Assembly (NCBI GenBank): GCA_030622115.1
Contig: JAUXGN010000016.1
Location: forward strand, 1 to 59,457
Length of the DNA stretch: 59,457 bases
Direction: 5' to 3'
Source of the DNA: Candidatus Eiseniibacteriota bacterium
GTDB taxonomy: Bacteria; Joyebacterota; Joyebacteria; Joyebacterales; Joyebacteraceae
The position numbers and the translations under genes were made by a program. The notes under the pieces were generated by a model. That model did no database searches. It had not been told where the DNA came from and saw only the letters and a program-made list of their open reading frames with translations. This document shows positions 3,772-6,050 of the stretch, piece by piece. How positions within the stretch are numbered: position 1 is the first letter of the stretch; each line of letters starts with the position of its first letter.

Positions 3772-3844
3772 CGCGGGCATCCAAGCATGTCGGGTAGCCG
3801 ATCGCGTCGTCGATCTCAGTGTCAGAGCCACAAGTGGAGAGAAC

Positions 3845-4891
3845 GTGAGCAAGGAAGAGATCATCAAGCTGACCCAGAAGGTTCGCTGCTCGGGCTGAGC
3901 GTCCAAACTTGGTCCGGAGGACCTCGCCGAGGCGCTTGAGAATCTGAAGCCGATCATCGATCCGCGCGTGCTGGTCTCCGCCAGTACGGCTGATGACGCC
4001 GGCGTCTATCTTATGGATGATGGACGAGCCATCGTTTTCACCCTCGACTTCTTCACGCCCGTTGTCGATGATCCACGTGACTTCGGTCGCATCTCGGCTG
4101 CCAACTCGCTCTCCGACGTATACGCGATGGGCGGAACACCCATTGTCGCATTGAACATCGCCTGCTTTCCGGAAAGCGAGCTTCCAGGCTGGGTCCTGAG
4201 CGAGATCCTGGCAGGTGGCCAGGAGAAAGCAATGGAGGCAGGTGTGCCCACGATCGGCGGGCACTCCGTCAGCGATATGGAACTCAAGTACGGTCTTGCC
4301 GTTGTCGGCACCATCGACCCTGAGAGCATCGTCACCAACGCGGACGCCAGAGCGGGTGACGTTATTGTTCTCACCAAGCCACTGGGGATCGGCATTCTGA
4401 CCACGGGGATCAAGTACGAGCGACTGTCGGCCAACGAAATCGCGCGCGTGACCGATGTCATGACCTCTCTTAACCATGCGGCGTCACAGGCGATGCTCAA
4501 GGCAGGCGCTCACTCGGCAACCGACATCACCGGGTTCGGTCTGGCGGGCCATGCTCTCGAGATGGCGGATGGGAGCGGGGTCACTCTGGAACTGAGTCTC
4601 GCCGACATCCCTGTTCTCGATGGGGCTGAGGAACTCGCGGCCTCCGGCATCGCGCCGGGCGGGCTCGGCACGAATCGCGAATACTTCGGTCGCCGGGTCG
4701 AGACCTCGATACGTGAGGGAGACGCACGGTTGAGTCTCATCTACGACCCGCAAACGTCGGGAGGTCTTCTCATCGCCCTGTCCCCTGAGAGTGTAGAGCT
4801 GTTTGGACAGGCGATGCTCAAGGCCGGCGTGGACTGGTGGACGATAGGCCGTGCAGTATCCGCAGTCGAGCGGCCTCTCGTCATCCTCTAG
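3845..4891 (+). CDS. selD: Selenophosphate synthase containing selenocysteine (UGA at codon 18)
   Basis: SelD makes selenophosphate from selenide and ATP for selenocysteine synthesis. Reading from GTG 3845 (GGAG 5 nt upstream), codons 1-17 give VSKEEIIKLTQKVRCSG. UGA 3896-3898 falls at the catalytic Cys/Sec position, and the frame continues as ASKLGPEDLAEALE into an ordinary SelD. With UGA read as Sec the product is 348 aa, matching E. coli SelD (347 aa). Downstream landmarks are DDAGVYLMDDGRA, AANSLSDVYAMGGTP, DITGFGLAGHALEMA and the C-terminal QTSGGLLIAL. The equivalent of E. coli Cys19 is Ser20, while Cys15 lies three residues before Sec, forming a CxxU pair. A strong hairpin follows the UGA, and tRNA-Sec is the next gene. 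A caller that stops at UGA would give a truncated protein beginning near 3968. Confidence 0.95.
3896..3934 (+). promoter_or_regulatory. Sec UGA codon with candidate bacterial SECIS hairpin
   Basis: UGA is at 3896-3898. A perfect 5-bp stem GGTCC 3911-3915 / GGACC 3919-3923 encloses a GGA loop. The loop starts 18 nt after the UGA, within the range known for bacterial SECIS elements recognised by SelB, and has G at the apex. The lower stem is not obvious by eye. The element overlaps coding sequence, as expected for bacteria. Confidence 0.75.
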
Positions 4892-4947: not shown

Positions 4948-5046
4948 GGGAGTGGATGGGTCCTGGTGGGCTCCAAGGGCTTCAAACCCTTATGTCGGGC
5001 GGCTGATCCCGTCCGAGGTGGGTTCGATTCCCACACATTCCCGCCA
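4948..5046 (+). tRNA. selC: tRNA-Sec (anticodon TCA)
   Basis: This 99-nt tRNA has the class features of bacterial selenocysteine tRNA. The acceptor is GGGAGTGG/ACATTCCC with discriminator G and encoded CCA. The D stem has six base pairs closed by a TGGT loop. The anticodon arm is AAGGG-CTTCAAA-CCCTT, reading UGA. The long variable arm is TCGGGCGG/CCGTCCGA (8 bp, loop CTGATC), and the T arm is GTGGG-TTCGATT-CCCAC. The eighth acceptor pair is a G-A mismatch, so the stack is 7+5 pairs plus one mismatch rather than a clean 8+5. It lies between selD and the PP-loop gene, which begins 32 bp after CCA. Confidence 0.95.
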
Positions 5047-5078: not shown

Positions 5079-6050
5079 GTGAAGGCTCTCTCTCTCATGT
5101 CCGGTGGTCTGGACAGCATGCTCGCTGCCAAGCTCATGATGGAGCAGGGTATCGAGGTAATCGGTCTCAGTTTCATCTCGTCGTTCTTCGACGCGGAAGG
5201 CGCACAGAGGGGTGCGGCTGAACTCGGCATTGAGCTCGTCGTGATGGATTTCAGCGACGAGCTTCTCAAGGTCATCCGGTCGCCGAAGCACGGGTACGGC
5301 AAGCATATGAACCCATGCATAGACTGTCATGCGCTCATGCTGCGGCTGGCCGGTGAGCGGCTGGAGGAACTCGGCGCGTCGTTCGTCATCACCGGAGAAG
5401 TCGTAGGTCAGCGGCCCAAATCGCAGATGCGCTTCGGACTCGGCGTCGTCGAGCGAGTCTCCGGGCTTGAGGGATACCTTCTTCGACCGCTTTCTGCCAA
5501 GTTGTTGCCACCGACGGTGCCCGAGATCAAGGGGTGGGTCGATCGCGAGAAGCTCCTTGGTTTTCACGGCAGAAGTCGCAAGCCCCAGATGGCACTCGCG
5601 GAGGAATTCGGCATCAAGACGTACGCCACACCGGCCGGCGGGTGTCTTCTCACCGACGAGAATTTCTCGAGGGCGCTGAGAGATCTCAAGGAGCACGGAC
5701 GACTGACGCATTCCGGGATGCGGATTCTGAGCTTCGGCCGCCAGTTCCGGCTATCCGACACGGCGAAGCTGATCGTCGGCCGGAACCACACGGAGAACAC
5801 ACAACTCTTCAGGCTCAGGTCTGAGGATGATCTATTGGTGAAGGTCATGGACCACAAGGGCCCGGTGGGAGTGCTCTCCGGTGACGCAACCGATGGGGAT
5901 ATCGAACTCGCCGCTCGCGTCGTCGCGCGCTATTCCGATGCCGACGCACACGAATCTGTGACTGTGAGGGCCTGGAGTTCGGAGGACGACTCCAAGAAGA
6001 TCACGGTGGCGCCCTTCAGTTCGAAGGAAGTCAAGGAGCTGGCAATCTGA
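5079..6050 (+). CDS. PP-loop ATPase, tRNA-thiolation type, with NFACT-R-like C terminus
   Basis: 323 aa. The N-terminal ATP-pyrophosphatase P-loop SGGLDSML is at residues 8-15. The CxxC pair in HMNPCIDCH is at Cys80/Cys83, and PAGGCLLTD gives a third Cys at 189. This is the layout of thiouridine synthases of the MnmA/ThiI/TtuA kind, which adenylate a tRNA base and then exchange in sulfur. The C-terminal third (LSFGRQFRLSDTAKLIVGRN onward) resembles the NFACT-R RNA-binding domain that occurs fused to some PP-loop enzymes. GTG 5079 is the first start after tRNA-Sec and gives the expected MKALSLMSGG N terminus; a weak GGGGA lies about 12 nt upstream. Its position after selD-selC hints at sulfur or selenium tRNA modification, but the actual substrate is unknown. 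Confidence 0.75.
   Translation: MKALSLMSGGLDSMLAAKLMMEQGIEVIGLSFISSFFDAEGAQRGAAELGIELVVMDFSDELLKVIRSPKHGYGKHMNPCIDCHALMLRLAGERLEELGASFVITGEVVGQRPKSQMRFGLGVVERVSGLEGYLLRPLSAKLLPPTVPEIKGWVDREKLLGFHGRSRKPQMALAEEFGIKTYATPAGGCLLTDENFSRALRDLKEHGRLTHSGMRILSFGRQFRLSDTAKLIVGRNHTENTQLFRLRSEDDLLVKVMDHKGPVGVLSGDATDGDIELAARVVARYSDADAHESVTVRAWSSEDDSKKITVAPFSSKEVKELAI

Follow-up and report, generated by a model that had tools for sequence, protein, structure and literature searches.

The gene found at positions 3845 to 4891 of the window, the whole stretch of 59,457 nucleotides that was analyzed, raises the question of whether a TGA triplet located near the beginning of its reading frame ends translation or encodes selenocysteine (Sec). 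The gene, like the other window features described below, is on the forward strand. It was identified as selD, the gene for selenophosphate synthetase, and its frame has a GTG start, preceded by a likely ribosome-binding site (GGAGAG, 3836 to 3841), and a TAG stop. The TGA (3896 to 3898) is codon 18 and the sole codon that must be recoded for the read-through translation to yield a 348-amino acid product with a predicted Sec18. This product matched the TIGR00476 equivalog with 374.2 bits (cut-off, 125) over positions 1 to 310 of the 311 in the profile, as expected from the proposal in the first-pass annotation that the read-through protein is complete, and it carries both AIRS domains, PF00586 at the N-terminal and PF02769 at the C-terminal side. 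The same annotation had anticipated that a gene caller would begin selD near 3968 and lose the active site. Translation of the region with table 11 gave precisely this outcome, i.e., the longest open reading frame was 3968 to 4891 (307 amino acids), which does not include the active-site loop. Ordinary annotation would cut 41 residues off SelD, the active site among them, and reading the TGA as Sec corrects the gene.

The location of the TGA within the protein was assessed by alignment with solved SelD chains. Residue 18 aligned with the Cys in the sequences GAGCGCK of 3u0o and SSGCAAK of 2yye, which we take to be the catalytic residue of SelD. The placement of the UGA at the catalytic Cys/Sec position, which had originally been deduced from the letters alone, was in agreement with this alignment. 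The Aquifex aeolicus SelD (PDB 2yye/2zod) aligned over its full length and has Sec at the same position as the protein described here; the Cys at this place in the 2yye chain corresponds to Sec in the native enzyme. The two motifs, SSG-U-AAKVGP in A. aeolicus and CSG-U-ASKLGP here, are similar in that neither has a Cys two residues past the Sec. They differ in the Cys three residues before the Sec, which is present here and in many other Sec-containing SelD proteins and absent in A. aeolicus. The E. coli-type Cys enzyme, for which chain 3u0o was compared, belongs to the same family and aligned over residues 4 to 340, but it has a catalytic Cys and a second Cys two residues on where this protein has Sec18 and Ser20.

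The genome (2.63 Mb in 98 contigs, listed as 100% complete) was inspected for the components of the Sec pathway. The selA gene was found in contig C74 (436 bits) and selB in contig C42 (353 bits, with a match to the C-terminal region). A tRNA-Sec gene (selC) with the anticodon TCA was located at 4948 to 5046 by ARAGORN and as an Rfam RF01852 match of 70.9 bits; it begins 57 bases past the selD stop. It is the only tRNA-Sec with a TCA anticodon in the genome, and a second RF01852 match above the cut-off turned out to be a tRNA-Leu. The absence of selA and selB had been named beforehand as an observation that would speak against a selenoprotein. Instead, both genes are present and the tRNA-Sec gene adjoins selD. 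The locus combines features expected of a bacterial selenoprotein gene, a UGA at the position occupied by Cys or Sec in homologues and a genome with selA, selB, and tRNA-Sec.

Conservation of the TGA was surveyed in 20 genomes that represent a single family of the phylum. The Sec-type SelD was represented by 20 copies in 19 of them, while the remaining genome, which is 78% complete, produced only weak matches. Each of the 20 copies carries a single TGA, always at this codon, and this holds down to about 54% identity. Among the best 80 relatives elsewhere in a public genome collection, this codon is TGA in 74 and TGT or TGC in 6. Concern that the triplet at 3896 might actually be TGC or TGT is answered by the relatives, since they too carry TGA. 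Its presence in all family copies and in 74 of the 80 relatives elsewhere makes a sequencing error untenable.

In bacteria, the SECIS element is a hairpin just 3′ of the UGA, with a short loop that has G at its first two positions. A putative apical hairpin of this kind, GGUCC-GGA-GGACC, lies at 3911 to 3923 and appears in the predicted fold. The arms GGTCC (3911 to 3915) and GGACC (3919 to 3923) would form a stem of 5 bp closing the 3-nt loop GGA (3916 to 3918). The pairing of these arms had been noticed in the first-pass annotation and stands, but the spacing of 18 nt given there does not, as the distance from the UGA is 12 nt to the start of the stem and 17 nt to the start of the loop. The folding energy of a 48-nt stretch of this single sequence was not better than that of shuffled versions (z −0.43), and because of this unremarkable value it is the comparative evidence that carries the hairpin. 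Since the stretch also encodes a conserved peptide, GPEDL, conservation alone is no proof of a hairpin. The comparison was therefore made against a null in which synonymous codons were drawn according to the codon usage of each gene (2000 trials). All 14 distinct family selD sequences form 5 of 5 pairs, whereas under the null 2.1 sequences did so on average and 8 at most. Of 72 other distinct Sec-SelD sequences, 18 are fully paired (null 2.0, maximum 9), and paired alternatives of the stem such as GGGCC/GGCCC and GCACC/GGTGC occur in other lineages. None of 10 Cys-SelD sequences was fully paired in the same register, where the null expectation is also about 0. Furthermore, these genes most often use GGC for Gly, yet the Gly in the stem is encoded by GGT in all 20 family copies. 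The selD element has a 5-bp stem and a loop GGA that starts 17 nt past the UGA, and it is kept beyond the constraint of the codons, as anticipated for a SECIS element.

These results support, with a probability of about 0.96, that the 3845 to 4891 gene encodes an ordinary bacterial Sec-type selenophosphate synthetase, in which SelB would read the hairpin and Sec would occupy codon 18. The conserved TGA and the pairing of the hairpin exceed what chance would produce, and on these sequence comparisons the assignment of the UGA to Sec can be made with high confidence. The main proposal of the first-pass annotation, that this SelD is a selenoprotein, is likewise favored by the machinery, the conserved TGA, and the hairpin. 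In the expected pathway, SelB and Sec-tRNA-Sec would recognize the hairpin of the selD mRNA just past the UGA, leading to the insertion of Sec at codon 18. Sec18, in a mobile N-terminal loop, would handle selenide, and SelD would convert selenide and ATP to selenophosphate, which SelA would use to produce Sec-tRNA-Sec. Because SelA makes Sec-tRNA-Sec from selenophosphate, SelD would support its own synthesis. We infer the insertion of Sec and the activity of SelD from established knowledge of the family; the gene content, the codon position, and the conservation of the hairpin were read from the genomes.

Were the TGA a true stop or a sequencing error, the locus would be a pseudogene or encode a shorter protein from 3968, and a table 11 frame does exist there. 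This is very improbable, considering that 20 copies, distributed over 19 genomes, share this TGA and a conserved N-terminal peptide around it, that the full Sec machinery is present, and that the hairpin has been maintained. That the UGA was reassigned, or is read through as Trp, Cys, or some other residue, has a negligible probability, as nothing beyond the in-frame TGA speaks for it, no clear gene in the window apart from selD requires read-through, TGA terminates many other genes there, the only tRNA-Trp seen has a CCA anticodon, and a dedicated tRNA-Sec exists together with selA and selB. A chance TGA, a pseudogene, and code reassignment were rejected on the basis of the conserved TGA, the hairpin null, and the TGA stops in other genes.

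The combination of a CxxU pair with Ser at the place of the E. coli Cys19 had been regarded as unusual. This view was not sustained. Among the family copies, 17 of 20 have CxxU without a Cys two residues past the Sec, as do 17 of 74 Sec-SelD loci of other lineages, including, according to record titles, Chloroflexi, Acidobacteria, KSB1, and Candidatus Eisenbacteria, and A. aeolicus also lacks that Cys. The Sec form of SelD is already well described and common in bacteria, and the claim of novelty for CxxU fails. Few bacterial selenoproteins are as widespread as SelD, which reviews rank second in prokaryotes, and the bacterial SECIS of selD is known (PMC1794560, PMC13188914, PMC4561486). With this result, a lineage that has received little study joins the known Sec users, and the general view of selenium biology is unchanged.

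Other uses of selenium were sought in the same genome. No mnmH/ybbB, indicative of selenouridine use, was found. Six families (Mo-oxidoreductase/FdhA, peroxiredoxin, thioredoxin, CCG, CMD, and FlpD) were examined and yielded no second selenoprotein, and the genome matches to PF00384, PF00578, PF00085, PF02754, PF02627, and PF02662 had no internal stops. The sampled stretches around selA, selB, and redox clusters held no convincing second UGA gene. One cluster, in positions 1 to 12000 of contig C32 (locus L152), includes a formate-dehydrogenase-alpha-like protein (562 amino acids, without Sec), a sulfhydrogenase-beta-like protein, and a NuoD-like subunit. The genome has a complete Sec machinery, yet the six families examined revealed no selenoprotein in addition to SelD. 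A literature search on Eisenbacteria selenoproteins returned nothing useful.

The gene that follows selD and tRNA-Sec (5079 to 6050) is more curious than selD itself. It encodes a ThiI-like PP-loop protein with a C-terminal NFACT-R_2 domain (Pfam PF02568 and PF18297). In 17 of the 19 family genomes with selD, it immediately follows selD and tRNA-Sec, and the other 2 have contig breaks. The flanking sequences retrieved for 80 SelD loci of other lineages did not contain a recognizable copy of the gene, and a literature search on the ThiI/NFACT architecture with selD was not useful. We consider it doubtful that this protein is a dedicated part of the selenium system acting, for example, in tRNA-Sec modification or selenium hand-over.

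Some relatives have a second, Cys-type SelD beside the Sec-SelD. In the locus L030 of one relative (334 to 2553), a Cys-type SelD follows a NifS-like cysteine desulfurase in one fused protein; similar open frames were observed in L031 and L032, and the frame is split in L033. NifS-SelD fusions, a type reported from two instances only (PMC4561486), share the SelD domain with the protein described here, but they are of the Cys type, fused, and without the hairpin of this selD; none was found in the genome under study. In those relatives, the Cys-type SelD could supply selenophosphate before the Sec-SelD is made.
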